Both the position numbers and the translations under genes were made by a program. Shown piece after piece: positions 13,951 through 30,359 of a stretch of 64,000 nt of DNA. The notes under the pieces were generated by a model. The model was not told the DNA's origin and ran no database searches. It was given only the letters and a program-made list of their open reading frames with translations. The stretch lies in NCBI RefSeq assembly GCF_019923725.1, contig NZ_JAHXRI010000025.1, positions 62,001 to 126,000 on the forward strand, in the 5' to 3' direction. Source of the stretch: Zwartia hollandica (GTDB lineage: Bacteria; Pseudomonadota; Gammaproteobacteria; Burkholderiales; Burkholderiaceae_B). Numbering within the stretch: the stretch's first letter is position 1; each line of letters opens with the position of its first letter.

Positions 13951-16530
13951 TTAAACTGCGTCGGCAACATCCTTGTAGTCAGGAATTTGATCAAAGTTAA
14001 GATACTTGTAGATATCCTTACTGCTTTCTTTGATCACACCCATGTCGGCCATGTACTCTTCTTTGGTCGGGATGCGGCCAAGTTTCGAGCAAATCGCGGC
14101 GAGCTCAGCTGAGCCAAGGTACACATTCGTGTTCTTACCCAAACGGTTGGGAAAGTTACGTGTACTGGTTGACATGACCGTCGCGCCTTCGCGTACTTGT
14201 GCTTGGTTGCCCATGCACAAAGAGCATCCTGGCATTTCGGTACGTGCACCGGCTACACCGAACACGCCGTAGTGACCTTCCTCAGTGAGTTGGGCTGCAT
14301 CCATCTTGGTTGGCGGAGCAATCCACAACTTAACGGGCATATCACGCTTACCCTCAAGTAACTTCGAAGCGGCGCGGAAGTGACCGATGTTGGTCATGCA
14401 GCTACCGATAAACACTTCGTCAATCTTGGAGCCAGCGACTTCAGACAGGAACTTCACGTCATCAGGATCGTTCGGGCAAGCAACAATTGGCTCGTGGATA
14501 TCAGCGAGATCGATCTCGATCACGGCTGCGTATTCTGCATCAGCGTCAGGCTGGAGCAACTGTGGGTTGGCCAGCCATGCTTCCATTGCTTCAATGCGAC
14601 GACGGATGCTGCGCTCGTCGTCGTAGCCATTGGCAATCATCCACTTCAACATCACGATGTTGCTGTTGATGTATTCAATGACGGGCTCTTTGTTCAGGCG
14701 AACCGTACAGCCAGCCGCGGAGCGTTCAGCCGAAGCGTCTGACAGTTCGAACGCCTGTTCGGCTTTGAGATCTGGCAAGCCTTCGATTTCAAGAATACGA
14801 CCCGAGAAAATGTTTTTCTTGTTTTGCTTCTCGACAGTCAGCAGGCCCGCTTTGATTGCATACAGCGGAATCGCGCTGACCAAATCACGCAGGGTGACGC
14901 CAGGCTGCATTTTGCCCTTGAAGCGCACTAGTACAGATTCTGGCATGTCGAGTGGCATGACCCCCGTCGCTGCAGCAAACGCCACCAGACCTGAGCCTGC
15001 TGGGAAGCTGATGCCAATTGGGAATCGGGTGTGCGAATCGCCGCCCGTGCCAACTGTGTCAGGCAAGAGCATGCGGTTGAGCCAAGAGTGAATCACGCCG
15101 TCGCCTGGGCGCAGCGAAATACCGCCACGGTTGCTCATGAATTGCGGCAACGTGTGCTGGGTCTTCACGTCGACCGGTTTCGGATAGGCTGCGGTGTGGC
15201 AGAACGACTGCATAACCAAATCAGCAGAGAAGCCCAAACATGCGAGGTCTTTTAGTTCGTCGCGTGTCATCGGACCCGTTGTATCCTGGCTCCCAACGGA
15301 TGTCATCAGTGGCTCACAGTAGGCGCCAGGACGAACGCCGTGGCCCTCTGGCAAGCCACAAGCACGACCCACCATTTTCTGGGCAAGTGTGAAGCCTTTT
15401 TTGCTCTCAGCCGGCTTGGTTGGCAAGCGGAAGAGGGTTGACGCAGGCAAACCGAGTGCCTCGCGCGCCTTGGCAGTCAATCCGCGACCGATAATTAGCG
15501 GAATACGACCGCCAGCACGAACTTCGTCGAACAGAACGTCAGATTTGACTTCAAACTTCGAAATCACTTTGCCATCTTTCAGGGCTTGGCCCTCGTAGGG
15601 ACGCAGTTCAACGACGTCGCCCATATTCATGTTGGAGACATCCAATTCGATTGGCAGGGCTCCAGCATCTTCCATCGTGTTGTAGAAGATCGGTGCAATC
15701 TTGTTGCCCAAACATACGCCACCAAAACGCTTGTTCGGTACGAAAGGAATGTCTTCGCCCGTAAACCATAGAACAGAGTTTGTCGCCGATTTGCGCGACG
15801 AGCCCGTGCCAACGACGTCGCCAACGTAGGCGACGAGGTGGCCCTTCTTCTTTAAATCGTTGATGAACTTGATCGGTCCAATTTTGCCGGGTTCTTGCGG
15901 TTCAATTCCAGGACGCGGGTTCTTGAGCATCGCCAGGGCGTGCAAGGGAATGTCAGGACGGCTCCAAGCATCCGGAGCGGGAGAGAGGTCATCCGTGTTT
16001 GTTTCGCCAGTCACTTTGAGAATCGTGACTGTCAAGCTCTTGGGGACTTCAGGACGGCTAGTAAACCATTCGGCATCAGCCCAGCTTTGCATGACAGCTT
16101 TCGCGTTTGCATTGCCTTTAGCGGCCTTTTCTTTGACGTCATGGAATGCGTCAAACATCAGTAGTGTCTTCTTCAGGCCTTCTGCTGCGATCTTGCCTAC
16201 TTCGGCATCGTCGAGCAATTCGACCATTGGGCCGATGTTGTAGCCGCCAAGCATGGTGCCCAATAACTCAGTTGCTTTGGCACGCGAGATGAGGGAGCAC
16301 TTTTCTTTGCCGCTCGCCACTGCGGCAAGATAGGCTGCCTTCACCTTCGCTGCCTCGTCTACGCCCGCTGGCACGCGATGCGTAATGAGTTCAACCAGCG
16401 CTTCGCCCTGACCGGCCGGAGGCGATTGCAGCAGAGCAATCAGATCTGCTGTTTGTTGAGCTGATAAGGGAAGAGGAGGAATGCCGAGGGCTGCGCGTTC
16501 GGCAACATGTTGGCGATAGGCTTCGAGCAT
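13951..16530 (-). CDS. acnB: Bifunctional aconitate hydratase 2 / 2-methylisocitrate dehydratase
   Basis: AcnB, 859 residues, interconverts citrate and isocitrate in the TCA cycle and can hydrate 2-methyl-cis-aconitate. The architecture is the B type: N-terminal HEAT-like domain ([20 protein letters not shown]), swivel domain, then the catalytic domains. Likely [4Fe-4S] ligands are in [12 protein letters not shown] and [10 protein letters not shown] near the C-terminus. It is a separate unit with its own promoter (-10 at 16568-16573) and terminator, and the promoter carries the palindromic operator also found before mdh. No acnA is seen; the second aconitase-family gene here is acnD. Confidence 0.97.
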
Positions 16531-16567: not shown

Positions 16568-16596
16568 ATTGTAAAGTGAAGCGGGTCCAGCGGCAA
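16568..16596 (-). promoter_or_regulatory. Sigma-70 promoter of acnB
   Basis: On the minus strand, TTGCCG (16596-16591) and TACAAT (16573-16568) are separated by 17 bases. The predicted start near 16561 leaves a leader of about 30 bases before the acnB ATG at 16530. The 21-bp palindrome at 16599-16619 begins 2 bp upstream of the -35 box. Confidence 0.75.
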
Positions 16597-16598
16597 GT

Positions 16599-16619
16599 GT
16601 CTTATATCTTATATAAGAC
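16599..16619. promoter_or_regulatory. Palindromic operator upstream of acnB
   Basis: Arms GTCTTATAT and ATATAAGAC are perfect complements around a CTT centre. The same element (one outer mismatch) lies at 24463-24483 before mdh, at the same 2-bp distance from the -35 box. Binding by the GntR-family protein encoded at 24551 is inference. Confidence 0.75.
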
Positions 16620-16662
16620 TTAAGTTAAAGCAGGTCTTAGCTCTAACTAGCTGATCGTGGAT

Positions 16663-16935
16663 TTAGGCTACCAAAACTGCATATTCCGGATGACGTTGGA
16701 TGTATACCGCAGCATAGCTGCAGCGTGGGACAACCTTCCAGCCCTGTTGCTTTGCGTGTTCCAACGCAAAGCGTGTGATCTCGCCCGCCAAGCCGCGCCC
16801 TCCCAAGGCCTCTGGGACCCCAGTGTGCGTAATGGTCATGGTGTCGTTTGTCAGTGCATAGTCTAGAACGCAGCGATGACCTTCGATCATGAGAGAAAAG
16901 CGGTTTGCTGCAGAGTCGTGTTGGATGTCATACAT
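16663..16935 (-). CDS. Small GNAT-family N-acetyltransferase (COG2388-like)
   Basis: A 90-residue minimal GNAT protein. The start MYDIQHDSAANRF at 16935 overlaps the stop of the upstream membrane-protein gene (TAATG). The acetyl-CoA motif is PEALGGRGLAGEITRFALEHA, followed by WKVVPRCSYAAVYIQRHPEY, the strand-helix pattern typical of the YjdJ-like single-domain group. The substrate is unknown. It is the last gene of the mdh-prp array before the acnB promoter; no clear terminator separates them, so read-through into acnB is possible. Confidence 0.82.
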   Translation of the reverse strand: MYDIQHDSAANRFSLMIEGHRCVLDYALTNDTMTITHTGVPEALGGRGLAGEITRFALEHAKQQGWKVVPRCSYAAVYIQRHPEYAVLVA

Positions 16936-17327
16936 TATTTGGATCCCAAGATGAGCGTCGCCCAAAGTGTCACCATCGAGACGAGTCCAATGATACAACT
17001 GCCCCAAAGCCCAACAATGGGCCAACGCACACTCATCGGGAGCTCTTTGGGGTCTACGTGCGATAGCAGTTGATTGGCGTTCTTTGCAAACCAAAGATTG
17101 GTACGTGAAAACAGCGTACGCAAAAAATAATCCAGAACAATGGTGAGGCGGATGCTGATCGTGAATTGGTTAAAGTTCTTTTCGCGAAGGTAGGGGTGTT
17201 TATACAGTTGATTCGCTTCTTTGATTTTGAAGAGAAACAAATAGACACCCGAGATCACAAAGACAAAACTGCAGGCAATAAAGAGGCTGAAACTAAAGGT
17301 TAGTGCAACGGCAATGTACTCAGACAT
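16935..17327 (-). CDS. Membrane protein of unknown function
   Basis: A 130-residue protein starting MSEYIAVALTFSFSLFIAC. Hydrophobic helices are at about 5-32 and 105-127, with a weaker segment near 55-72; the middle is polar (KIKEANQLYKHPYLREKNF). I do not recognise a family. It overlaps prpF by 8 bases and the GNAT gene by 1 base, so it is embedded in the prp operon and translationally linked to it, but its part in propionate metabolism is unproven. Confidence 0.7.
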   Translation of the reverse strand: MSEYIAVALTFSFSLFIACSFVFVISGVYLFLFKIKEANQLYKHPYLREKNFNQFTISIRLTIVLDYFLRTLFSRTNLWFAKNANQLLSHVDPKELPMSVRWPIVGLWGSCIIGLVSMVTLWATLILGSK

Positions 17328-18507
17328 AGTGCGGCACCCGAACCCAGCCTTCCATTAAAACGCGTGCGCTGCGACTCATGATTGCTTTGGTAACTTTCCA
17401 TTCGCCATCGATCAGTGCCGCTTCCGCGCCAACCCGTAATGCGCCGGACGGATGACCAAAGCGTACGGCATCACGTTTGCCGCCGCCGGCCGCCAGGTTG
17501 ACGGTCGTACCTGGTATGGCGGCCGCAGCGCTAATGGAGACTGCAACCGTTCCCATCATCGCGTGATGTAACTTGCCCATCGATAGAGCGCGCACCAACA
17601 CATTTACATCGCTTGCAGCAACCAGTTTCCCACTGGAGGAAACGTAGTCGGTCGGCTTGGCGACAAAGGCGACTTTCGGTGTGTGTTGACGCTTCGCTGC
17701 TTCGTCCAGGTGTTGGATCAGACCCATACGCAAAGCACCGTAAGCGCGTATTTTTTCAAACATGGCGAGCTTTTCAGAGTCGCTATTGATGTCGTCTTGC
17801 AACTCAGTCCCCGTAAATCCAACTGCGGCAGCATCCACAAAAATGGTGGGTATGCCTGCGTTAATCATGGTGGCCTTGAGAGTTCCCACCCCAGGCACCT
17901 CAAGGTCATCGATCAAGTTACCTGTTGGGAACATGGAGCCGCCCGCACCTTCCTCGTCAGCGGCTGGATCCATGAATTCAAGTTGCACCTCTGCGGCAGG
18001 GAAGGTGACACCGTCGAGCTCAAAGTCGCCGGTCTCTTGCACAGCACCGTTAGTCATCGGAACATGGGCGATGATAGTCTTGCCGATGTTCGCCTGCCAA
18101 ACGCGCACAGTACAGGTGCCATTTTGTGGAATGCGGCTGGGATCGATTAAACCGTTGCTAATCGCGAACGGACCCACTGCAGAAGAGAGATTGCCGCAGT
18201 TACCGGTCCAGTCAATAAATGGCTTGTCGATGGACACTTGACCAAACAGATAGTCGATGTCGTGATCAGGACGGGTACTTTTTGAGAGGATGACGGTCTT
18301 GCTCGTGCTCGAGGTCGCTGCACCCATGCCGTCGGTTTGCTTGCCGTAGGGGTCTGGGCTGCCAATCACGCGCATCAGAAATGCATCGCGAGCGGCACCT
18401 GGAACTTGTGCGTCTTTGGGCATATCCTGAAGACGAAAAAACACACCTTTACTTGTACCGCCGCGCATGTAGGTTGCAGGAACTTTTATTTGTGGTGCAT
18501 GGGACAT
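17320..18507 (-). CDS. prpF: 2-methylaconitate cis-trans isomerase
   Basis: PrpF, 395 residues, isomerises the trans-2-methylaconitate made by AcnD into the cis form used by AcnB. The family opening is visible as YMRGGTSKGVFF, followed by GSPDPYGKQTDGMGAATSST and WTGNCGNLSSAVGPFA, which carries the catalytic cysteine region of the diaminopimelate-epimerase-like fold. Length is normal. It sits directly after acnD, as in all acnD/prpF-type methylcitrate clusters, and overlaps the next small membrane-protein gene by 8 bases. Confidence 0.96.
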   Translation of the reverse strand: MSHAPQIKVPATYMRGGTSKGVFFRLQDMPKDAQVPGAARDAFLMRVIGSPDPYGKQTDGMGAATSSTSKTVILSKSTRPDHDIDYLFGQVSIDKPFIDWTGNCGNLSSAVGPFAISNGLIDPSRIPQNGTCTVRVWQANIGKTIIAHVPMTNGAVQETGDFELDGVTFPAAEVQLEFMDPAADEEGAGGSMFPTGNLIDDLEVPGVGTLKATMINAGIPTIFVDAAAVGFTGTELQDDINSDSEKLAMFEKIRAYGALRMGLIQHLDEAAKRQHTPKVAFVAKPTDYVSSSGKLVAASDVNVLVRALSMGKLHHAMMGTVAVSISAAAAIPGTTVNLAAGGGKRDAVRFGHPSGALRVGAEAALIDGEWKVTKAIMSRSARVLMEGWVRVPHYV

Positions 18508-18552
18508 GTCATAACTTCCTGAAAAAGATTCTTTGTGCGGTTGCTTTCTGCT

Positions 18553-21147
18553 TTAAGCGGCTGCTGTGGATTCAAGAAAATCCTGCGCAAAACGCTGCAA
18601 CACACCGCCGGCTTCATAAATCGAGACTTCTTCGGCCGTATCCAGTCGACAGGTCACGGGGACCTCAATTCGCTCACCGTTCTTGCGAGTGATGACGAGC
18701 GTCAGGGTCGCAAGTGGTACGCGTTGACCGATCACGTCGTACATTTCTGTACCATCTAATTTTAGTGTGTTGCGATCGACGCCAGACTTGAATTCCAGGG
18801 GCAGAACGCCCATGCCCACGAGGTTCGTGCGGTGGATACGCTCAAAGCCCTCTGCCACAATCGCTTCAACGCCTGCGAGGCGAACACCTTTGGCCGCCCA
18901 GTCACGCGACGAGCCTTGTCCGTAGTCAGCGCCTGCAACGATGATCAGAGGCTGCTTGCGCTCCATGTAGGTTTCAATCGCTTCCCACATGCGTGTTACC
19001 TTACCCTCGGGTTCAATGCGCGCGAGTGAGCCTTGCTTGACCTTGCCGTTCTCTACGGCCATCTCATTGATGAGCTTAGGGTTGGCGAAGGTTGCACGCT
19101 GCGCGGTGAGGTGATCTCCCCGATGCGTGGCGTACGAGTTAAAGTCTTCCTCAGGCAGGCCCATCTTGTGTAGATACTCACCAGCGGCGCTGTCCATCAT
19201 GATGGCGTTCGAGGGTGACAAGTGGTCTGTGGTGATGTTGTCGCCAAGCAGAGCCAGCGGACGCATGCCTTTCAGAGTCCGTTCTCCAGCAAGCGCACCT
19301 TCCCAATAGGGCGGGCGACGAATGTAGGTGCTCTGTGCTCGCCAGTCGTAAAGGGGGCTCAACTTTTCGCCGGTATCGACGGTCGCAGCGAACATAGGCT
19401 CGTAGACTTTACGGAATTGTGCTGGCTTGACGCTCGACGCGACGATTGCGTCGATCTCTGCATCTGTTGGCCAGATGTCTTTGAGCGTCACGGGCTTGCC
19501 TAGCTGATCGATGCCCAAGATATCTTTTTCAATATCAAAGCGAATGGTGCCAGCGATCGCATACGCCACAACAAGTGGGGGCGAAGCTAGAAACGCTTGC
19601 TTCGCATACGGGTGAATACGACCGTCGAAGTTACGGTTGCCAGACAGCACCGCAGTCGCGTACAAGTCGCGATCAATGATCTCTTGCTGAATCACGGGAT
19701 CAAGTGCACCGCTCATACCGTTACACGTTGTACAAGCAAAAGCGACGATACCAAAACCGAGCTTCTCTAGCTCTGAGAGGAGCTGTGCGTCTTGCAGGTA
19801 GAGCTCGACTGTCTTTGATCCTGGCGCTAATGAACTCTTCACCCAAGGCTTACGTGTGAGTCCACGGGCATTCGCATTGCGCGCGAGCAGGCCTGCTGCG
19901 ATCACATTGCGGGGGTTGCTGGTGTTTGTGCAGCTGGTGATGGCGGCGATGATGACTGCGCCATCGGGCATCAAACCAGGCTCGTTCTCGACTTTACCCG
20001 AGATACCGAGGGCTTTGAGCTCTGTTGTCGGCACACGTCGGTGCGGGTTCGATGGGCCTGCGATATTGCGCACAACAGTCGACAGGTCAAAACGCAGTGT
20101 ACGCTCGTACTCGGCACCCTTGAGGCTATCTGCCCACAGGCCAGCTTGCTTAGCGTAAGTCTCGACCAGCTTCACTTGAGCCTCTTCACGCCCTGTGAGG
20201 GTGAGGTAGTCAATGGTTTGTTGATCGATGTAGAACATGGCGGCTGTTGCGCCATACTCAGGTGTCATGTTCGAAATCGTCGCGCGATCACCGAGCGTTA
20301 AGTGCGAAGCGCCTTCGCCAAAAAACTCCAGGTAGGACGACACGACTTTTTGGTTGCGCAAGAATTCAGTTAGAGCTAATACGAGGTCAGTAGCCGTAAT
20401 ATTGGGCTGAAGCTTGCCCGTGAGCTCTACGCCAATGATGTCAGGCAGGCGCATCCAGGAGGCGCGGCCGAGCATAACGCTTTCTGCTTCCAAGCCACCT
20501 ACACCGATTGCGATGACGCCCAAAGCGTCTACGTGTGGTGTGTGGCTATCTGTGCCAACTAGTGTGTCAGGGAAAGCCACGCCATCCAGCGCATGGATCA
20601 CTGGCGACATACGCTCCAAGTTGATCTGATGCATGATGCCATTACCTGGGGGGATGACATCTACGTTCTTGAATGTCTTCTTGGTCCAGCTAATAAAATG
20701 AAACCGATCTTCGTTGCGTCGATCTTCGATCGCGCGGTTCTTTTCAAACGCATCAGGATCAAAGCCACCGCACTCCACCGCCAGCGAGTGGTCAACGATC
20801 AGCTGTGTGGGCACAACGGGATTGACTAAAGCAGGGTCGCCGCCTTGTGCTGCAATCGCATCCCGCAAGCCTGCCAGGTCAACTAAAGCAGTTTGACCCA
20901 AAATGTCGTGACAAACGACGCGAGCAGGAAACCACGGAAAGTCGAGGTCGCGCTTGCGTTCGATAATTTGCGACAGCGATGCGGTCAGCGTGGCTGGGTC
21001 GCATCGACGTACAAGGTTCTCGGCAAATACACGCGAGGTGTAAGGGAGCTTGTCATAGGCGCCTGGTTTGATTGCATCAACGGCGGCACGCGTGTCAAAG
21101 TAATCAAGTTTGGTGCCCGGCAGGGGCTTGCGGTTTGCAGAGTTCAT
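18553..21147 (-). CDS. acnD: Fe/S-dependent 2-methylisocitrate dehydratase AcnD
   Basis: AcnD, 864 residues from ATG 21147 (MNSANRKPLPGTKL), dehydrates 2-methylcitrate in the methylcitrate cycle. An in-frame extension to 21186 runs into prpC and is not needed. Aconitase A-type features: VGTDSHTPHVDALG, the Fe-S cysteines in ITSCTNTSNP and FACTTCNGMSG, and the swivel-domain GADYGQGSSRDWAAKG. The paired prpF gene is 45 bases downstream, which distinguishes AcnD from AcnA. The start lies 1 base after the prpC stop. Confidence 0.95.
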   Translation of the reverse strand: MNSANRKPLPGTKLDYFDTRAAVDAIKPGAYDKLPYTSRVFAENLVRRCDPATLTASLSQIIERKRDLDFPWFPARVVCHDILGQTALVDLAGLRDAIAAQGGDPALVNPVVPTQLIVDHSLAVECGGFDPDAFEKNRAIEDRRNEDRFHFISWTKKTFKNVDVIPPGNGIMHQINLERMSPVIHALDGVAFPDTLVGTDSHTPHVDALGVIAIGVGGLEAESVMLGRASWMRLPDIIGVELTGKLQPNITATDLVLALTEFLRNQKVVSSYLEFFGEGASHLTLGDRATISNMTPEYGATAAMFYIDQQTIDYLTLTGREEAQVKLVETYAKQAGLWADSLKGAEYERTLRFDLSTVVRNIAGPSNPHRRVPTTELKALGISGKVENEPGLMPDGAVIIAAITSCTNTSNPRNVIAAGLLARNANARGLTRKPWVKSSLAPGSKTVELYLQDAQLLSELEKLGFGIVAFACTTCNGMSGALDPVIQQEIIDRDLYATAVLSGNRNFDGRIHPYAKQAFLASPPLVVAYAIAGTIRFDIEKDILGIDQLGKPVTLKDIWPTDAEIDAIVASSVKPAQFRKVYEPMFAATVDTGEKLSPLYDWRAQSTYIRRPPYWEGALAGERTLKGMRPLALLGDNITTDHLSPSNAIMMDSAAGEYLHKMGLPEEDFNSYATHRGDHLTAQRATFANPKLINEMAVENGKVKQGSLARIEPEGKVTRMWEAIETYMERKQPLIIVAGADYGQGSSRDWAAKGVRLAGVEAIVAEGFERIHRTNLVGMGVLPLEFKSGVDRNTLKLDGTEMYDVIGQRVPLATLTLVITRKNGERIEVPVTCRLDTAEEVSIYEAGGVLQRFAQDFLESTAAA

Positions 21148-21148
21148 A

Positions 21149-22357
21149 TCAGCGACGTTTGGCGAGTGGTACAAATTTTTGATCATCGGGTCCGACGTAG
21201 TTGGCGGCTGGGCGAATAATCTTGTTGTCGATGCGCTGTTCGATAATGTGTGCGGACCAACCAGCGGTGCGCGCGATCACAAAAAGCGGTGTGAACATTG
21301 CTGTGGGTACACCCATCATGTGATACGACACTGCCGAGAACCAGTCGAGGTTCGCGAACATTTTCTTGGCATCCCACATCACACCCTCGAGACGGTCCGC
21401 GATGTCATACATCTTGGTCGTGCCGGCCTTCTTCGATAAGCGCAGGGCAACGTCTTTGATGACCTTGTTGCGAGGATCGGAGATGGTGTAGACAGGGTGG
21501 CCAAAGCCGATAACGACTTCTTTGTTCTCGACGCGCGCACGAATGTCTGCCTCTGCTTCATCCGGCGTTTCGTAACGCTTCTGAACTTCGAAGGCGACTT
21601 CGTTCGCACCGCCATGCTTGGGTCCGCGCAGTGCGCCGATACCGCCCGAGATAGCGGAGTACATATCCGAGCCTGTTCCTGCGATGACACGGCAGGTGAA
21701 GGTTGAAGCGTTGAACTCGTGCTCTGCATAAAGAATCAAAGACGTGTGCATCGCGCGAACCCAGTCTTCATTGGGTTTCTTGCCATGTAGCAGGTGCAGG
21801 AAGTGTGCGCCAATTGAGTCGTCGTCAGTTTGTACGTCAATGACACGACCGTTGTGGCTGTAGTGGTACCAGTAAAGCAGAGCCGAACCCAGATTGGCCA
21901 TGAGGCGGTCGGCGATGTCGCGTGCGTCGGGAATGTTGTGGTCGTCTTTCTCTGGCAGGATGCAGCCCAGTGTCGAGGCAGCTGTGCGCATGACATCCAT
22001 TGGATGGCTGGCAGCAGGCAATGACTCGAGCACCGTTTGCAATTGTGCGGGCAAGCCGCGCAGTGAGCGCAGCTTTGCTTTGTATGCAGCGAGTTCGGCT
22101 TTGTTCGGAAGCTTGCCGTGAATCAACAGGTGGGCAATTTCTTCGAACTCGCTCGTGTCAGCAAAGTCGAGAATGTCGTAGCCGCGATAGTGCAGGTCAT
22201 TGCCGCTGCGACCAACGGTGCACAGGGCAGTGTTTCCGGCAGTCACGCCTGATAAGGCGACTGACTTCTTTGGCTTGAAGGTGGGTGCAGCTGCGGGGGC
22301 GGCTGCCGCGACAGACTTCGCTGCCGATGCTGTGACGGGTTTCTTTTTGCTTGCCAT
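21149..22357 (-). CDS. prpC: 2-methylcitrate synthase
   Basis: PrpC, 402 residues, condenses propionyl-CoA with oxaloacetate. The citrate-synthase catalytic residues are in EHEFNAST (His), GFGHPVY (His) and [13 protein letters not shown] (Asp). The conserved core begins near residue 36 ([18 protein letters not shown]). The first 35 residues are an Ala/Lys/Pro-rich, low-complexity extension ([15 protein letters not shown] and onward), longer than the usual PrpC N-terminus. The extension is preceded by a good Shine-Dalgarno (AAAGGAAT) at ATG 22357, so it appears to be translated. Confidence 0.96.
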
Positions 22358-22375
22358 GAGGTATTCCTTTCGAAA

Positions 22376-23269
22376 TTATTTGGACTTGCCTTGCGCGAAT
22401 AAAGTGTCGATGCTGCTTTCAAATGCGTGATAGTTGATACGATCGTACAGCTCGTCACGCGTTTGCATGATGTCGATTACGTTGCGTTGGTGCCCATCGC
22501 GCCTGACGGCTTGATACACCGTCTCTGCAGCCTTGTTCATTGCACGGAAGGCTGAAAGTGGGTACAGGACCATATTGACGCCCACTGATTTGAGCTCTTC
22601 GACTGAAAACAACGGTGTCTTGCCAAACTCGGTGATGTTCGCGAGCAAAGGGGCGCCCGTGGCTTTCTTGAATTTTGCAAAAGTCTCGAGGTCATAGGCA
22701 GCTTCTGCAAAGACCGCATCGGCACCGGCTTCCATGCAAGCTAAGCCGCGCTCGATCCCAGCTTCAACACCGTGCGAAGCAATTGCGTCCGTACGGGCAA
22801 TGATGTAGAAGCTGTCATCGGTACGTGCGTCAACGGCTGCTTTGACGCGGTCGCGCATTTCTTCGGTTGAGACCACCTCTTTGCCTGGACGGTGACCGCA
22901 ACGCTTGGCGCCCACTTGATCCTCGATGTGGCATCCTGCTGCGCCAAATTTTGTCAGGCCTTTGATTGTGCGTGCAATGTTGAAAGCCGACGGGCCAAAA
23001 CCTGTGTCGATATCAACGATCAGTGGCGTGTCGCACACGTCGGTAATACGGCGAACGTCTGTGAGTACGTCGTCCAAAGAGATGATGCCCAGGTCTGGCA
23101 TGCCCAACGACCCAGCGGCGACACCGCCACCGGAGAGATAGATGGCCTTAAAGCCGGCACGCTTAGCAAGTAGTGCATGGTTGGCATTAATCGCGCCAAT
23201 AATTTGCAGTGGTTGTTCTGCTGCGAGAGCCTCGCGAAAACGCTGGCCTGCTGTGGTTAATTTGGACAT
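22376..23269 (-). CDS. prpB: 2-methylisocitrate lyase
   Basis: PrpB, 297 residues, cleaves 2-methylisocitrate to pyruvate and succinate. It belongs to the isocitrate lyase/PEP mutase superfamily: [19 protein letters not shown] near the N-terminus, metal-binding IVDIDTGFG, and the catalytic-loop cysteine in [11 protein letters not shown]. Length matches other PrpB proteins. It is 18 bases upstream of prpC and 64 bases downstream of mdh, with an intrinsic terminator in that gap, so it may receive only read-through from the mdh promoter or use a promoter of its own. Confidence 0.97.
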
Positions 23270-23300
23270 GCTTGTCTCCGGAACAAAGCTTTAAAAAAAA

Positions 23301-23322
23301 ACGGGCCCTTGCATGGGCCCGT
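23301..23322 (-). terminator. Intrinsic terminator after mdh
   Basis: Arms ACGGGCCC (23301-23308) and GGGCCCGT (23315-23322) around a 6-base loop; an A-run at 23293-23301 gives a U-tract on the minus strand. It lies between mdh and prpB and may attenuate the prp genes. Confidence 0.85.
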
Positions 23323-23333
23323 TGCTGCAGTAG

Positions 23334-24323
23334 TTACTTCAGAAGGTGTGCGACAGCGTCGCGCTCTTCGATGAGCTCTTTGAGCGTCAGATCCATGCGC
23401 TCTCGTGAGAAGGCATCGACTGCGAGATCTTTTACGCGATGGTATTCGCCGCCTTCGCAGGTAACTGGTACGCCGTACATGGTGCCCTCTGGAATTCCGT
23501 AGGAGCCGTCTGAGGGGACTCCCATCGTGACCCATTTACCGTTTGTGCCCAACACCCAGTCGCGAATATGGTCGATGGCTGCGTTGGCAGCCGAGGCTGC
23601 TGAGGATAAGCCACGCGCTTCGATAATCGCTGCACCACGCTTGCCAACTGTGGGCAAGAACACATCCCGATTCCAGGCAGCGTCGTTAATTAGTTTCTCG
23701 ACGCTCTGGCCGCCAATGGTTGCAAAGCGGTAGTCTGCATACATAGTGGGTGAGTGGTTGCCCCAGACGGCGAGCTTCTGGATGTCGGCAACAGGCTTAC
23801 CCATCTTGGTGGCGAGTTGCGACAATGCGCGGTTGTGGTCGAGACGCAGCATGGCGGTGAAGTTCTTCGCAGGCAGGTCTGGTGCGGACTTCATGGCGAT
23901 GTATGCGTTGGTGTTGGCGGGGTTGCCCACGACCAATACTTTAACGTTACGCTTGGCAGCCTGGTTCAGTGCTTTACCTTGAGCGGTAAAGATTGCGGCA
24001 TTAACAGCGAGTAAGTCAGCGCGCTCCATGCCTGGGCCGCGAGGACGCGAACCGACTAGCAGGGCAACTTCTACGTCTTTAAAGGCTTCGACAGGGTCGC
24101 TGTGCGCGGTCATGGACTGCAGCAGAGGAAACGCGCAGTCATCTAGTTCCATCATGACGCCCTTGAGTGCTTTTTGGGCCTTTTCGTCAGGAATTTCGAG
24201 TAACTGCAAAATTACCGGCTGATCTTTGCCGAGCATTTCACCCGAAGCGATACGGAACAAGAGGGCGTAACCGATCTGGCCTGCGGCGCCAGTGACCGCA
24301 ACACGCACGGCGGGTTTGGACAT
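23334..24323 (-). CDS. mdh: Malate dehydrogenase
   Basis: NAD-dependent malate dehydrogenase, 329 residues, oxidises malate to oxaloacetate in the cytosol. The Rossmann motif is [13 protein letters not shown], and the catalytic Asp/His pair is in [10 protein letters not shown] and [13 protein letters not shown]. The long insert and [20 protein letters not shown] are features of the LDH-like MDH type 2 group common in betaproteobacteria. It is first in the mdh-prpBC-acnD-prpF array and has a strong promoter with the palindromic operator, divergent from gntR. Confidence 0.97.
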
Positions 24324-24431
24324 AACTATCTCCGAAAGAACTGAGAGGATTGTGGGGATGGATTAATAGCGAGTTTAGCTTTTTTGCTGTCCCGCTAACC
24401 TCGTCGGCGAGACAACTGAAATCTGCGTCGA

Positions 24432-24460
24432 ATGCTAGTCCAAATTGTGCAAAGCGTCAA
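24432..24460 (-). promoter_or_regulatory. Sigma-70 promoter of mdh
   Basis: On the minus strand, TTGACG (24460-24455) and TAGCAT (24437-24432) are separated by exactly 17 bases. The predicted start near 24425 leaves a leader of about 100 bases. The palindrome at 24463-24483 starts 2 bp upstream of the -35, the same geometry as at acnB. Confidence 0.75.
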
Positions 24461-24462
24461 TA

Positions 24463-24483
24463 ATCTTATATCTTATATAAGAC
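24463..24483. promoter_or_regulatory. Palindromic operator between mdh and gntR
   Basis: Reads ATCTTATAT, CTT, ATATAAGAC: the same element as at 16599-16619 with one outer-base change, 19 contiguous bases being identical. It lies 68 bases upstream of the gntR ATG and immediately upstream of the mdh -35, so it could serve both directions. Confidence 0.75.
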
Positions 24484-24550
24484 ACAAGAGTAGTGGACTT
24501 GTGGGGCAGGCTATGTCACAATATTGCTATGAATTTTTACGTCTCCTGTC

Positions 24551-25318
24551 ATGTCTGACTCCGCACGCGGTCGAAATCTCCCATTGGGGCAGGTCGCGAG
24601 TGCGGCGGCTTTTAGTCCGCTTTACCAGCAGATTAAAGCCCTCCTGGTGCAGGCGCTTGACGCCGGCGAATGGAAGCCTGGCGAATCGATCCCCAGCGAA
24701 ATTGAGTTAGCTTCGCGGTTTCAGGTTAGCCAAGGCACTGTGCGAAAGGCTGTAGACGAACTTGCGGCAGAGCATCTGCTGACGCGCAGGCAGGGAAAAG
24801 GTACGTTTGTCTCGACCCACCATGAGCCCCGCGTCCGATTCAGGTTTCTGCGCCTCGCTTCCAACGAAGGTGAGCCCCAGCCCGCTGAGAGCCGGGTGCT
24901 TGACTGTCGGCGGATCCGGGCGAATGCCGAAATGGCTCGGGCGTTAGAGCTGAAGTCAGGAGATCCCATTGTGGCGATTCGCAGACTGCTGTCGTTTGCA
25001 GGTACGCCAACGGTGGTGGACGACATATATTTACCCGGTGCGCTGTTTAAAGGGCTTAGTGCAGATTTACTCAACGGGTACTCAGGGCCTCTTTACGGAA
25101 TGTTCGAGTCTGAGTTCGGAATTAGTATGGTGCGCGCTGAAGAAAAGCTGCGCGCCGAGCTCGCTGAAATCGAAATCGCAAAGTGCCTCGGTGTTGAACC
25201 TGGAATACCCTTACTTTGCGTGGAGCGGATTTCTTATACGTACGCGAATCGTCCAGTAGAATTGCGCGTTGGGCACTATGTGACCAGTCAGTATTATTAC
25301 CGTAATAGCTTGAATTAA
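24551..25318 (+). CDS. GntR/HutC-family transcriptional regulator
   Basis: A 255-residue repressor/activator. The N-terminal winged helix (about residues 22-90) has the GntR signature: LYQQIKALLVQALDAGEW, SEIELASRFQVSQGTVRKAV and RRQGKGTFVS. The rest (about 100-240) is a UTRA ligand-binding domain with the HutC-type GDPIVAIRRL and ERISYTYANRPVELRVGHY strands; this domain usually senses a small organic acid, sugar or amino acid. It is divergent from mdh and directly upstream of sdhCDAB, pointing to control of TCA genes. Ligand and target are inferred only. It should bind the palindrome at 24463 and possibly the one at 16599. Confidence 0.9.
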   Translation: MSDSARGRNLPLGQVASAAAFSPLYQQIKALLVQALDAGEWKPGESIPSEIELASRFQVSQGTVRKAVDELAAEHLLTRRQGKGTFVSTHHEPRVRFRFLRLASNEGEPQPAESRVLDCRRIRANAEMARALELKSGDPIVAIRRLLSFAGTPTVVDDIYLPGALFKGLSADLLNGYSGPLYGMFESEFGISMVRAEEKLRAELAEIEIAKCLGVEPGIPLLCVERISYTYANRPVELRVGHYVTSQYYYRNSLN

Positions 25319-25409: not shown

Positions 25410-25820
25410 ATGTCTGACTCAGCTGCTAAGCCGCGTCCTCAGTTCCGCAATATCGGAATCACCGATTTGATGGCGTATCGCTTGCCAATGGCTGGCAAAG
25501 TGTCAATTCTGCATCGCGTGAGCGGTGCCCTCTTGTTCCTCTGCTTGCCGGGCTTGATTGCCCTGTTTGCCATGAGCTTCTCGTCTGAGGCGGGGTTCAA
25601 AGCGATGTCGACAGTCGTCGGCTTCCCATTAGTCAAGCTCATTTTGCTGGTGTTGATCTGGGGTTACCTGCATCACTTCTGTGCGGGCATACGCTACCTC
25701 GTGCTCGACATGCACATCGGAGTCGATAAAGAGTCCGCTGCCAAAAGCGCCAGTCTGGTCTTGGGCGTCAGCCTCGCGCTGACGGTTGTCTTTGCACTCA
25801 AACTATTCGGAGTCTGGTAA
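25410..25820 (+). CDS. sdhC: Succinate dehydrogenase cytochrome b556 subunit
   Basis: SdhC, 136 residues, is one of two membrane anchors of complex II; it holds haem b and the ubiquinone site. The family signature VSILHRVSGALLF is at residues 31-43, and the candidate haem ligand is in HHFCAGIRYL (His88/His89). Three transmembrane helices are at about 38-57, 72-95 and 113-133. The stop overlaps sdhD by one base (TAATG). I see no confident promoter in the 91-base gap after gntR. Confidence 0.95.
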   Translation: MSDSAAKPRPQFRNIGITDLMAYRLPMAGKVSILHRVSGALLFLCLPGLIALFAMSFSSEAGFKAMSTVVGFPLVKLILLVLIWGYLHHFCAGIRYLVLDMHIGVDKESAAKSASLVLGVSLALTVVFALKLFGVW

Positions 25821-26203
25821 TGGTTCCCGTTGAAAAAATTGGTCCCAAGCGCTTGGTTGTTGGTGCGCATTACGGAACAAGCGAATTCATTATCCAGCGC
25901 GTGACCGCCATTATCTTGGCTGTTTACACGCTTGTGCTACTTGTGGGCATCTTAACGATGTCCGGGTTCACCTACGCTGGTTGGAAAAATCTTTTCACGT
26001 TCACCTGTTTCTTCATTCCGATGGGGCAGATTCTGGCAACGCTCGCGATGATCTCTCTCGCGTGGCATGCCTGGATTGGTGTGCGTGACATTTGGATGGA
26101 CTACGTTAAGCCCGTAGGCCTTCGCCTCTTTTTACTGGTTCTGACTATTTTGTGGTTGGTCGGATCGGTCGTGTACTTCGTACACATCCTCTGGAGAAAT
26201 TAA
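25820..26203 (+). CDS. sdhD: Succinate dehydrogenase membrane anchor subunit
   Basis: SdhD, 127 residues with three predicted transmembrane helices (about 25-47, 56-85 and 100-124). The motif WHAWIGVRDIWMDYV carries the conserved His and Asp region of SdhD involved in haem and quinone binding. The N-terminal KRLVVGAHYGTSEFIIQR is typical of the betaproteobacterial form. It overlaps sdhC by one base and is followed by sdhA after three bases, so the operon is tightly packed. Confidence 0.95.
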   Translation: MVPVEKIGPKRLVVGAHYGTSEFIIQRVTAIILAVYTLVLLVGILTMSGFTYAGWKNLFTFTCFFIPMGQILATLAMISLAWHAWIGVRDIWMDYVKPVGLRLFLLVLTILWLVGSVVYFVHILWRN

Positions 26204-26206
26204 GCC

Positions 26207-27985
26207 GTGGCTGCTGTCAAATCTTCTTTACCGCGCCGTCAGTTTGATGTGGTGGTCGTGGGTGCCGGCGGTGCCGGTATGCGTTGTTCGTTGCAGCTCG
26301 CAAATGCGGGACTGTCCGTGGCTGTGTTGTCCAAAGTGTTCCCAACCCGTTCGCACACGGTTGCCGCTCAGGGTGGTATCGGTGCTTCGCTTGGCAACAT
26401 GAGTGAGGACAACTGGTACTGGCACATGTATGACACAGTGAAAGGATCGGATTGGTTAGGTGACCAGGATGCGATCGAGTTCATGTGTCGTGAGGCGCCT
26501 AACGCCGTCTACGAGCTTGAGCATTTTGGTATGCCCTTTGACCGTAACCCTGATGGCACGATTTATCAGCGTCCGTTCGGTGGTCATACCGCTAACTTTG
26601 GCGAAAAGCCTGTCCAGCGCGCCTGTGCGGCGGCTGACCGTACCGGTCATGCTTTGTTGCACACGCTCTATCAGCGCAACGTCGCGTCGCGCACGCAGTT
26701 TTTCGTTGAGTGGATGGCCCTTGATTTGATTCGTAACGATGCGGGTGATGTTTTGGGTGTGACCGCACTCGAGATGGAAACCGGCGAAATTTATATTTTT
26801 GAAGCCAAGACCACCGTGATCGCAACCGGCGGTGCTGGACGTATTTGGGCGGCTTCGACCAACGCCTTTATCAATACAGGCGATGGCATGGGCATGGCTG
26901 CTCGAGCAGGCATCCCGATGATGGATATGGAGTTCTGGCAGTTTCACCCAACGGGGGTGGCGGGCGCAGGCGTGCTCATCACGGAAGGTGTGCGCGGCGA
27001 AGGCGGCATCTTGTTGAATAAAGATGGTGAGCGCTTCATGGAGCGCTACGCACCAACTCTTAAGGACTTGGCGCCACGCGACTTTATTTCGCGTTGTATG
27101 GACCAGGAAATCAAAGAGGGGCGTGGCTGCGGTCCGGACGGTGCTTATGTGCACTTGAAGCTGGATCACTTGGGTGCTGACGTCATTAACAAGCGTTTGC
27201 CTTCTATTCTCGAAATTGGTCACAAGTTTGCCAACGTCGATGCAACGAAAGAGCCTATTCCGGTTGTTCCAACCATTCACTATCAGATGGGTGGCATTCC
27301 TTGCAACTACCACGGTCAAGTGACGGTTTGGGATGGTAAAGAGGCTCAAATCGTTAATGGTCTATATGCGATTGGCGAGTGCTCGGCCACGTCTGTCCAC
27401 GGTGCAAACCGTCTGGGTACAAACTCCCTGCTTGATTTGATCGTGTTTGGTCGCGCTGCGGGCAATCACATTGTTGCTGCGCATCCAGAACGTCAGCGTT
27501 CACATCAGCCGCTGCCACAGGCATCAGTGGATTTCTCCTTGGATCGCGTCAACAAGCTTGAGTCGCGTACGAAGGGTGAGCGCACTCAGGTGGTAGGGAA
27601 CGAAATTCGTAACGCGATGCAGCAGCACTGCGGCGTCTTTCGCACCATGGCTTCGCTCAAGGAAGGTGTCAACAAGATCGATGCGTTGGCTGAGAAAGTC
27701 GATAACATCGCTTTCCAAGACAAGTCGAAGGTGTTCAACACTGCCCGTATCGAAGCGCTTGAGCTGAGCAACATGATCGAAGTAGCACGCTCGACGATTC
27801 ACTCTGCGGCTGCCCGCACAGAAAGTCGTGGTGCGCATGCGTTGGATGACTTCCCCACACGCGACGATGACAACTGGATCAAGCACACGCTCTGGTATTC
27901 GAAAGGTAACCGCCTCGACTACAAACCCGTGCAGATGCAGCCACTCACTGTTGAGAGCTTTCCTCCCAAGACGCGTACATTCTAA
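26207..27985 (+). CDS. sdhA: Succinate dehydrogenase flavoprotein subunit
   Basis: SdhA, 592 residues, oxidises succinate to fumarate and passes electrons to SdhB. It starts at GTG 26207. The FAD-binding motif is VVVVGAGGAGMRCSL; the histidine that carries FAD covalently is in RSHTVAAQGGIGASLGN. Substrate-site residues are seen in FHPTGVAGAGVLITEGVRGEGG and in NSLLDLIVFGRAAG. Its flavinylation factor sdhE lies in the same operon. A large antisense open frame over this gene is a codon-bias shadow. Confidence 0.98.
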   Translation: MAAVKSSLPRRQFDVVVVGAGGAGMRCSLQLANAGLSVAVLSKVFPTRSHTVAAQGGIGASLGNMSEDNWYWHMYDTVKGSDWLGDQDAIEFMCREAPNAVYELEHFGMPFDRNPDGTIYQRPFGGHTANFGEKPVQRACAAADRTGHALLHTLYQRNVASRTQFFVEWMALDLIRNDAGDVLGVTALEMETGEIYIFEAKTTVIATGGAGRIWAASTNAFINTGDGMGMAARAGIPMMDMEFWQFHPTGVAGAGVLITEGVRGEGGILLNKDGERFMERYAPTLKDLAPRDFISRCMDQEIKEGRGCGPDGAYVHLKLDHLGADVINKRLPSILEIGHKFANVDATKEPIPVVPTIHYQMGGIPCNYHGQVTVWDGKEAQIVNGLYAIGECSATSVHGANRLGTNSLLDLIVFGRAAGNHIVAAHPERQRSHQPLPQASVDFSLDRVNKLESRTKGERTQVVGNEIRNAMQQHCGVFRTMASLKEGVNKIDALAEKVDNIAFQDKSKVFNTARIEALELSNMIEVARSTIHSAAARTESRGAHALDDFPTRDDDNWIKHTLWYSKGNRLDYKPVQMQPLTVESFPPKTRTF

Positions 27986-28008
27986 GATCAGGACACCTGG
28001 AACACATC

Positions 28009-28725
28009 ATGAGCACTAAACGCATCGTGAAGTTTGAAATCTACCGCTACGATCCAGACAAGGACGAGCGCCCTTATATGCAAAAGCTTGAAGTCGAGCT
28101 GCAGCCCACAGACAAAATGTTGCTTGATGCGCTCATGCGTATCAAGATGGACGTGGATGACAGCTTGGCCCTGCGTCGCTCCTGCCGTGAAGGTGTGTGC
28201 GGCTCAGATGCCATGAACATCAATGGCAAAAACGGCTTGGCTTGTACGACCAACATGCTCGAACTGACCGAGCCCGTTGTGTTGCGTCCGTTGCCTGGCT
28301 TGCCAGTCATTCGCGACCTGATTGTCGACATGACGCACTTCTTCAATCAGTATCATTCAATTCGTCCGTACCTGATCAACGATACGCCTCCTCCTGAGAA
28401 AGAGCGCTTGCAAACGCCTGCTGCTCGTGAAGAGCTCGATGGCTTGTACGAATGCATCTTGTGCGCATGCTGTTCAACGTCGTGCCCATCATTCTGGTGG
28501 AACCCGGACAAGTTTGTGGGCCCGGCTGGCTTGTTGCAGGCTTACCGCTTTATTGCTGACACGCGTGATCACGCAACCGGCGAGCGTCTGGACAACCTTG
28601 AAGACCCTTACCGCTTGTTCCGTTGTCACACCATCATGAACTGTGTGGATGTGTGCCCGAAAGGGTTGAACCCAACGCGCGCAATCGGCAAGATCAAAGA
28701 AATGCTTGTGCGACGCACGGTATAG
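28009..28725 (+). CDS. sdhB: Succinate dehydrogenase iron-sulfur subunit
   Basis: SdhB, 238 residues, links SdhA to the membrane quinone site with three clusters. The [2Fe-2S] ligands are in RRSCREGVCGSDAM and the Cys in GLACTT; the [4Fe-4S] and [3Fe-4S] ligands are in CILCACCSTSCPSF and CHTIMNCVDVCPKGLNP. The WWNPDKFVGPAGLLQAYRF region contributes to the ubiquinone pocket. Length and motif order are normal. It lies 23 bases after sdhA. Confidence 0.98.
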   Translation: MSTKRIVKFEIYRYDPDKDERPYMQKLEVELQPTDKMLLDALMRIKMDVDDSLALRRSCREGVCGSDAMNINGKNGLACTTNMLELTEPVVLRPLPGLPVIRDLIVDMTHFFNQYHSIRPYLINDTPPPEKERLQTPAAREELDGLYECILCACCSTSCPSFWWNPDKFVGPAGLLQAYRFIADTRDHATGERLDNLEDPYRLFRCHTIMNCVDVCPKGLNPTRAIGKIKEMLVRRTV

Positions 28726-29057: not shown

Positions 29058-30359
29058 ATGAAACTGTCCGACAAAAAAGCTACGCTCTCGTTCTCTGACG
29101 GCAGTCCCTCCGTCGATTTTCCAATGTACGACGGTTCGGTGGGCCCTCAGGTCATCGATATCCGTAAGCTCTATGGTCAAACGGGTTTGTTTACCTATGA
29201 CCCTGGCTTTCTTTCGACAGCGTCATGTTCGTCCGACATTACCTACATCGATGGCGACAAGGGTGAGTTGTTGTATCGCGGCTACCCAATCGAAGAGCTT
29301 GCTGTTAACTGCGACTTCATGGATATCAGCTACCTGATCCTGAACGGCGAACTGCCAGACGGCACGCAGAAAAAAGAGTTCGATAGTCTCGTGATGCACC
29401 ACACAATGGTCAACGAGCAGATGCATTTCTTCCTGCGCGGTTTCCGTCGCGATGCACACCCCATGGCTGTGTTGACGGGCTTGGTCGGTGCATTGTCTGC
29501 GTTCTATCATGACTCGACAGACATCACGAATGCGCATCATCGTCATGTATCCGCTATTCGTTTGATCGCTAAGATGCCAACGCTTGTTGCGATGGCCTAT
29601 AAGTATTCACAAGGTCAGCCTTACATCTACCCGCAAAACAATTTGTCGTACACCGGTAACTTTTTGCGCATGATGTTTGCGACACCTTGCGAAGAGTATG
29701 TGGTGAACCCAGTTGTTGAGCGCGCACTCGACCGCATCTTTATTTTGCACGCAGATCACGAGCAGAATGCGTCGACCTCAACGGTTCGTCTGTGCGGTTC
29801 GTCCGGCACCAATCCATTCGCAGCGATTGCGTCGGGTGTGGCGTGTTTGTGGGGCCCTGCTCACGGTGGCGCAAACGAAGCCTGCTTGCAGATGCTAGAA
29901 GAATTGCAGGCCAAAGGTGGCATGGCTAAAGTCGGCGAGTTCATGGAGCAAGTTAAAGACAAGAACTCTGGCGTACGTCTGATGGGCTTTGGACACCGTG
30001 TCTACAAGAACTACGATCCACGCGCAAAACTGATGCAGCAGACTTGCAAAGAAGTACTTGCAGCGTTGGGTCTTGAAAACGATCCACTGTTCAAGCTTGC
30101 GATGGAAGTGGAGCGTATCGCACTTGAAGACAAGTACTTCGTCGATCGTAAGTTGTATCCGAACGTTGACTTCTACTCGGGTATTGTTCAGCGAGCAATT
30201 GGTGTGCCGACAGCCTTGTTCACAGCAATTTTCGCCCTGGCTCGTACAGTGGGTTGGATTGCTCAGTGGAACGAGATGATCTCTGATCCTGAATACAAGA
30301 TTGGCCGTCCACGTCAGTTGTATCAAGGCTCAGTATCGCGCCACGTGCCAAAGCGCTAG
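29058..30359 (+). CDS. gltA: Type II citrate synthase
   Basis: GltA, 433 residues, condenses acetyl-CoA and oxaloacetate. The length and N-terminal beta-domain ([20 protein letters not shown]) mark the hexameric, NADH-sensitive Gram-negative type. Catalytic residues lie in [11 protein letters not shown] (His), [13 protein letters not shown] (His) and NVDFYSGIV (Asp). It is the last gene of sdhCDAB-sdhE-gltA and is followed by a bidirectional terminator. It is clearly distinct from PrpC at 21149. Confidence 0.98.

Follow-up and report, generated by a model that had tools for sequence, protein, structure and literature searches.

The window analysed here, a stretch of 64,000 nucleotides of Zwartia hollandica contig NZ_JAHXRI010000025.1 (positions 62,001 to 126,000, forward strand), carries two divergent runs of genes, most of them of the tricarboxylic acid (TCA) and methylcitrate cycles. 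On the minus strand lie mdh, prpB, prpC, acnD, prpF, a gene for a small GNAT-type protein and acnB, and on the plus strand gntR, sdhC, sdhD, sdhA, sdhB, a short open reading frame (ORF) and gltA; the short ORF, situated between sdhB and gltA, has no family match. Upstream of acnB, and again between mdh and gntR, stand two near-identical palindromes which, on the basis of their sequence, are in all probability operators of SdhR, a GntR-family regulator predicted in earlier work.

The repeat is a 21-mer. As the preliminary description of this DNA had it, the acnB copy (16599–16619) is exact and the copy between mdh and gntR (24463–24483) carries a single change, at an outer base; a scan of the window at up to three mismatches gave no further place, before sdhC, gltA, maeB or sucA or elsewhere. 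At the same threshold the 21-mer was matched in none of 100 dinucleotide shuffles of the window, and in the organism's own genome (G000, a draft of 3,221,261 bases in 25 contigs, 99.7% complete) the 19-mer TCTTATRTCTTATATAAGA matched at these two places only, its reversed control giving no match at all. We therefore reject a chance origin of the repeat. With a more permissive pattern, in which two 8-bp arms flank any 3-bp centre and 3 mismatches are allowed, nine matches were obtained, four of them on the two known sites and five elsewhere, against four for its reversed control.

What had been described as a simple palindrome turned out to be a 26-bp compound element, of which the 21-mer covers 20 bp together with one flanking base; the 6 bp falling outside it are the outer half of the operator distal to mdh and acnB. 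An operator of this kind has been published for SdhR, a member of the HutC subfamily, as TCTTATGTCTTATATAAGACATAAGA, 26 bp long and with additional symmetry (Suvorova, Korostelev & Gelfand 2015, PMC4494728), the motif being credited there to a 2012 paper of Suvorova, Ravcheev & Gelfand (10.1128/JB.00163-12). The operator between mdh and gntR differs from the published consensus at 2 of 26 positions and that of acnB at 3 of 26. The motif and the regulator are already in print as SdhR, and the repeat itself is largely known.

The product of the divergent gntR possesses a GntR domain [73.9 bits, E 8.1e-21] and a UTRA domain [111.2 bits, E 4.7e-32], the combination of GntR helix-turn-helix (HTH) and UTRA seen in the HutC subfamily of the GntR family. 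Its gene is also linked to those of succinate dehydrogenase, as one would expect from the name SdhR, the order being gntR, sdhCDAB and gltA on the same strand. Because the protein scores below the cut-off in all 24 NCBIfam families that it matches, NCBIfam assigns it no function: with the HutC equivalog TIGR02018 it reaches 106.4 bits (cut-off 220), which makes it a relative and not HutC itself, and with the PhnF equivalog TIGR02325 114.2 bits (cut-off 156.8). The nearest protein relatives come from metagenome-assembled genomes (93–95%) and from Zwartia panacis (81%). The GntR HTH plus UTRA architecture, the 26-bp operator with its additional symmetry and the linkage to sdh are all shared with SdhR, and nothing observed contradicts membership as SdhR is set out in the relevant passages of PMC4494728; the gene is likely sdhR. 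In the open-licence literature (gene names, pathway, SdhR and PrpQ as terms) nothing on the regulator was found beyond that paper, nor was any ligand or binding experiment on it.

Across 35 non-redundant loci (of 81) the conserved stretch is sharply delimited, its borders falling close to those of the 26-mer. Nine columns between -6 and +3 are invariant, as are those at +6 and +8, and weaker peaks beyond the operator mirror each other in distance. In 77 of 79 rows the top-scoring -35 towards mdh is 3–6 bp away from the operator (3–4 bp in 68). Towards gntR the top hexamer, which mostly resembles TGGAC, is 3–4 bp away in 63 of 79 and 7 bp away in seven, and a CACAAT-like -10 is found at about +27; two rows on the mdh side and nine on the gntR side do not fit the geometry. 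In these counts identical flanks were entered once (L080 being dropped), L106 was entered twice because of its two overlapping sites, and L098 contributed no row for its upstream site. The divergent operator is thus mostly flanked by two promoters that point away from each other and stand at similar distances from it. In the window both 26-bp operators end 3 bp ahead of the -35, and the hexamers, the 17-bp spacers and the 2-bp gap from 21-mer to -35 are all as first described. A general promoter scan of the window found 9 candidates against a shuffle mean of 10.7, no excess, so the hexamers count only through their conserved placement.

At acnB the operator is one-sided. Forty-seven acnB loci with a start and at least 150 bp upstream gave 40 distinct upstream regions, 29 of them with the operator core, a share which is no unbiased rate as many of the loci were sampled through a motif match. 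The promoter-proximal outer half alone is kept in 28 of the 29, and both halves in none; this asymmetry is not a product of the search, since the patterns allowed either orientation. Of the 28, 27 have a TANAAT hexamer starting 26–28 bp after the 26-mer, and 25 have TTG at 3 bp from its end. The scan for the best -35 gave a gap of 3 in 9 of 11 acnB rows; in rows L046 and L056 it settled on another pair despite a TTG at 3. In the sites that retain the opposite half, namely acnB of L098 and aceA of L128 and L131 (both of one family), the -10 is shifted by about the same 7 bases: TAAAAT in L098 starts at 20 after the 26-mer, 27 bp past the point where the last intact half-site ends, and TACCAT and TACAAT in the other two likewise start at 20. 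From these shifts it seems that the -10 distance is set from the last intact half-site. The fixed arrangement of operator and promoter proposed from the window alone is borne out.

We consider the following explanation, taken whole, highly probable. SdhR, most likely the product of the gntR gene of the window, would bind both operators, one of which would serve the two back-to-back promoters of mdh and gntR-sdhCDAB-gltA and the other that of acnB. In the 26-bp operator a fixed core, TCTTATATAAGA, would be flanked on both sides by an outer half-site, TCTTAT, in a 7-bp register, the working unit being the core plus one outer half, 19 bp long, directional and corresponding to the palindrome first described, and the -10 would start about 26–28 bp beyond the last intact half-site of this unit. 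The divergent operator would then be two units overlapping head to head and the acnB operator a single one. SdhR would contact RNA polymerase and so activate the mdh, gntR-sdh and acnB promoters; it would also control its own operon, and a ligand would presumably act in its UTRA domain.

Binding sites just upstream of the -35 are mostly activator sites. As the operator leaves a few bases free before the -35, and this spacing is held within a few bases at acnB, mdh and gntR, activation is the most likely mode of action and SdhR is probably an activator. The most specific form of the proposal, in which SdhR is a TCA activator and the palindrome represents two overlapping directional 19-bp operators, one for each divergent promoter and each with a fixed -10 distance, is put forward tentatively and at somewhat under even chances. 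If true, the symmetry of a site would tell the number of promoters that it serves, with both outer halves at mdh/gntR and one at acnB.

Characterised proteins of the HutC subfamily are usually ligand-released repressors, and SdhR might accordingly silence acnB, mdh and gntR-sdh from these same operators for as long as no ligand has released it. Two of the better-scoring relatives of the window protein are named as repressors (histidine utilization HutC and the trehalose operon repressor), and the hexamers of the mdh and acnB promoters are fair (9 of 12 positions). Against this, both the -35 and the -10 of acnB and of mdh lie clear of the operator in the window, most relatives hold the operator within a few bases of the same position ahead of the -35, and a half-site that has a direction and is turned towards the promoter fits an interaction with polymerase better than it fits obstruction. 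Repression is on these grounds less likely than activation, though it keeps a fair probability.

The preliminary description had named the divergent GntR/HutC gene as the candidate regulator, and the co-occurrence of motif and gntR across the Burkholderiales, mostly side by side, supports that choice. A pattern of 8-bp arms with any 3-bp centre (1 mismatch) was present in 43 of 61 near genomes, comprising all 32 of the window's genus, all five others of its family and 6 of 24 elsewhere in the order, its control occurring in one genome. Among 300 genomes of the order the 19-mer (1 mismatch) was found in 129 and a gntR match (E <= 1e-40) in 149, with both in 99, the motif only in 30, gntR only in 50 and neither in 121, counts which are not independent events because the genomes compared are related; the 19-mer control has one match in this table, in G076.

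Where they were inspected, the discordant classes mostly dissolve. Of 27 of the 30 motif-only genomes (G097, G140 and G208 were left out), 26 have a diverged gntR (33–38% identity) starting beside the site, together with mdh and sdhC. Twenty of the 50 gntR-only genomes were inspected, and in 19 a diverged operator precedes gntR, matched by no more than 1 of 200 shuffles preserving base composition only; among the other 30, those at about 39–44% identity may hold paralogues. In 60 of the 99 genomes having both, taking the site nearest gntR where there were several, the distance from motif to gntR was at most 400 bp in 55; the five not adjacent are G112, G259 and G067, of one genus, and G330 and G298. 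Starting from the protein, a search found 91 GntR relatives, of which 80 were kept, and 79 of these have a site within 6 of 26 mismatches. In L158 (G112), from a genus with small genomes, the site upstream of gntR is seemingly reduced to the core GTCTTATATAAGAC without outer halves.

These figures also bear on the idea that some other protein binds the site, gntR being merely a neighbour conserved with the TCA cluster. Part of the co-occurrence is synteny, gntR lying within a conserved gene cluster, yet motif and gntR stay adjacent even where the protein has drifted to 33–38% identity, they lie within 400 bp of each other in nearly all of the genomes measured, and the acnB sites, away from gntR, bear the same motif. 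We reject an unrelated regulator on this adjacency, which extends to the diverged families, and consider it very improbable. That the second copy arose recently by duplication and has no function, as two near-identical 21-mers 7.9 kb apart might suggest, is ruled out with near certainty by the recurrence of both copies in other genera and families while their flanks differ.

Several observations weigh against the explanation given above. Eleven of the 40 distinct acnB upstream regions lack the operator, and the acnB operator of L098 keeps the distal half only. In other families the aceA and icd sites vary in geometry and, those of L128 and L131 apart, follow no clear rule. Orthology to the published SdhR set is deduced from motif and linkage, and repressors can also act from upstream positions. 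Near the site of the motif-only genome G182 (L151) none of gntR, mdh, sdhC, acnB, acnD, prpB and gltA was matched; in the gntR-only genome G040 no operator was found upstream of gntR; and the protein relative L108 has no site within 6 mismatches. The L151 site and that of L120 (6 mismatches, between gene ends) look like chance matches.

As to the regulon of SdhR in this organism, the likely members, judged from the predicted sites, are mdh, gntR-sdhCDAB-gltA and acnB. In 79 loci the gntR and sdhC matches are 84–307 bp apart on one strand, and the same-strand order suggests that gntR, sdhCDAB and gltA form one transcript; if so, sdhC and gltA require no site of their own. Since 11 of the 40 upstream regions are without operator, acnB is a target which has been gained or lost and not a universal member of the regulon. 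The operator-free upstream regions are those of L102, L109–L115, L118, L154 and L157, and the same loci carry a site by gntR.

The make-up of the regulon varies between lineages, and in other genera and families it takes in genes of the glyoxylate shunt and additional TCA genes. The motif stands before icd in L130 and L137 (both by NCBIfam), while the gene in L136 is icd by guess; no clear promoter was found at the usual spacing from the icd sites of these three loci. It stands before aceA in L133 (NCBIfam) and L128 (Pfam) and, by weak similarity (28–32% match to prpB), in L131, L134 and L135, before acnA in L121 (NCBIfam) and, by 41–42% match to acnD, in L123 and L126, and before acnD once, in L125.

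The preliminary description had argued for a dedicated regulon of TCA and methylcitrate genes. The dedicated regulon stands; the methylcitrate part is weak, for the 64-bp gap between mdh and prpB holds a strong intrinsic terminator with a 9-bp stem and a T tract. Among relatives, 79 loci include the complete end of mdh; 63 of them show a perfect stem of at least 7 bp within 100 nucleotides past the gene, and 16 of these 63 have at least five T in the next 10 bases. A single SdhR transcript of mdh-prpBC-acnD-prpF is doubtful in view of this terminator; read-through is possible, as only 16 of the stems have such a T-rich tail, and the case for methylcitrate genes in the SdhR regulon is weak.

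In Achromobacter and Bordetella loci, for example L057 and L060, an inverted repeat of about ATAAACCTGTCCCTT ... AGGGGACAGATTTAT precedes prpB. A simple pattern for it was found in 17 of 68 loci with an mdh-prpB gap of less than 400 bp, and it may serve as operator for a distinct propionate regulator; visual inspection did not show it in the 64-bp gap of the window.

Table 1. Predicted SdhR operators, promoter elements and associated genes in the window
Feature	Position	Strand	Basis or remark
SdhR operator of acnB, 26 bp (predicted)	16600..16625	.	degenerate in the distal outer half; core and promoter-proximal outer half intact
acnB -35 TTGCCG	16591..16596	-	hexamer placement
acnB -10 TACAAT	16568..16573	-	hexamer placement; spacer 17
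acnB, aconitate hydratase B	13951..16530	-	TIGR00117, 1505 bits
SdhR operator between mdh and gntR, 26 bp (predicted)	24464..24489	.	both outer halves present
mdh -35 TTGACG	24455..24460	-	hexamer placement
mdh -10 TAGCAT	24432..24437	-	hexamer placement; spacer 17
putative gntR -35 TGGACT, mirror of mdh -35	24494..24499	+	TGGAC conserved at about this distance; absent from general promoter-scan list
putative gntR -10 CACAAT, TGT just before	24517..24522	+	alignment of relatives; absent from general promoter-scan list
gntR, proposed sdhR (GntR HTH and UTRA, HutC subfamily)	24551..25318	+	profile and domain matches
mdh, malate dehydrogenase	23334..24323	-	profile match
intrinsic terminator just past mdh, ahead of prpB	23300..23323	-	terminator scan; hairpin in relatives
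sdhCDAB	25410..28725 (25410-25820, 25820-26203, 26207-27985, 28009-28725)	+	profile matches
gltA, citrate synthase	29058..30359	+	profile match
small GNAT-type protein, between prpF and acnB	16663-17094	-	Pfam Acetyltransf_CG, E 2.5e-25

Local regulators recruited to sdh, gltA and other TCA genes are also described for Shewanellaceae, in the pertinent text of PMC5343134; these are PdhR, of the GntR family, and PsrA, of the TetR family, other proteins in other taxa than the SdhR considered here, and the name SdhR does not occur in that paper. Within the HutC subfamily NagQ and FarR also have unusual sites, with direct repeats, as PMC4494728 notes in its treatment of the subfamily. Unlike SdhR they have another motif, NagQ being directed to N-acetylglucosamine genes and FarR being a fatty acyl responsive regulator. 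Compared with what the SdhR passages of PMC4494728 contain, three details are new: the mirrored arrangement of the promoters, the acnB operators with a single outer half, and the test of distribution. A little-studied regulator of many Burkholderiales families is in this way tied to the core TCA genes mdh, sdhCDAB, gltA and acnB, and in some relatives to aceA, icd and acnA as well.

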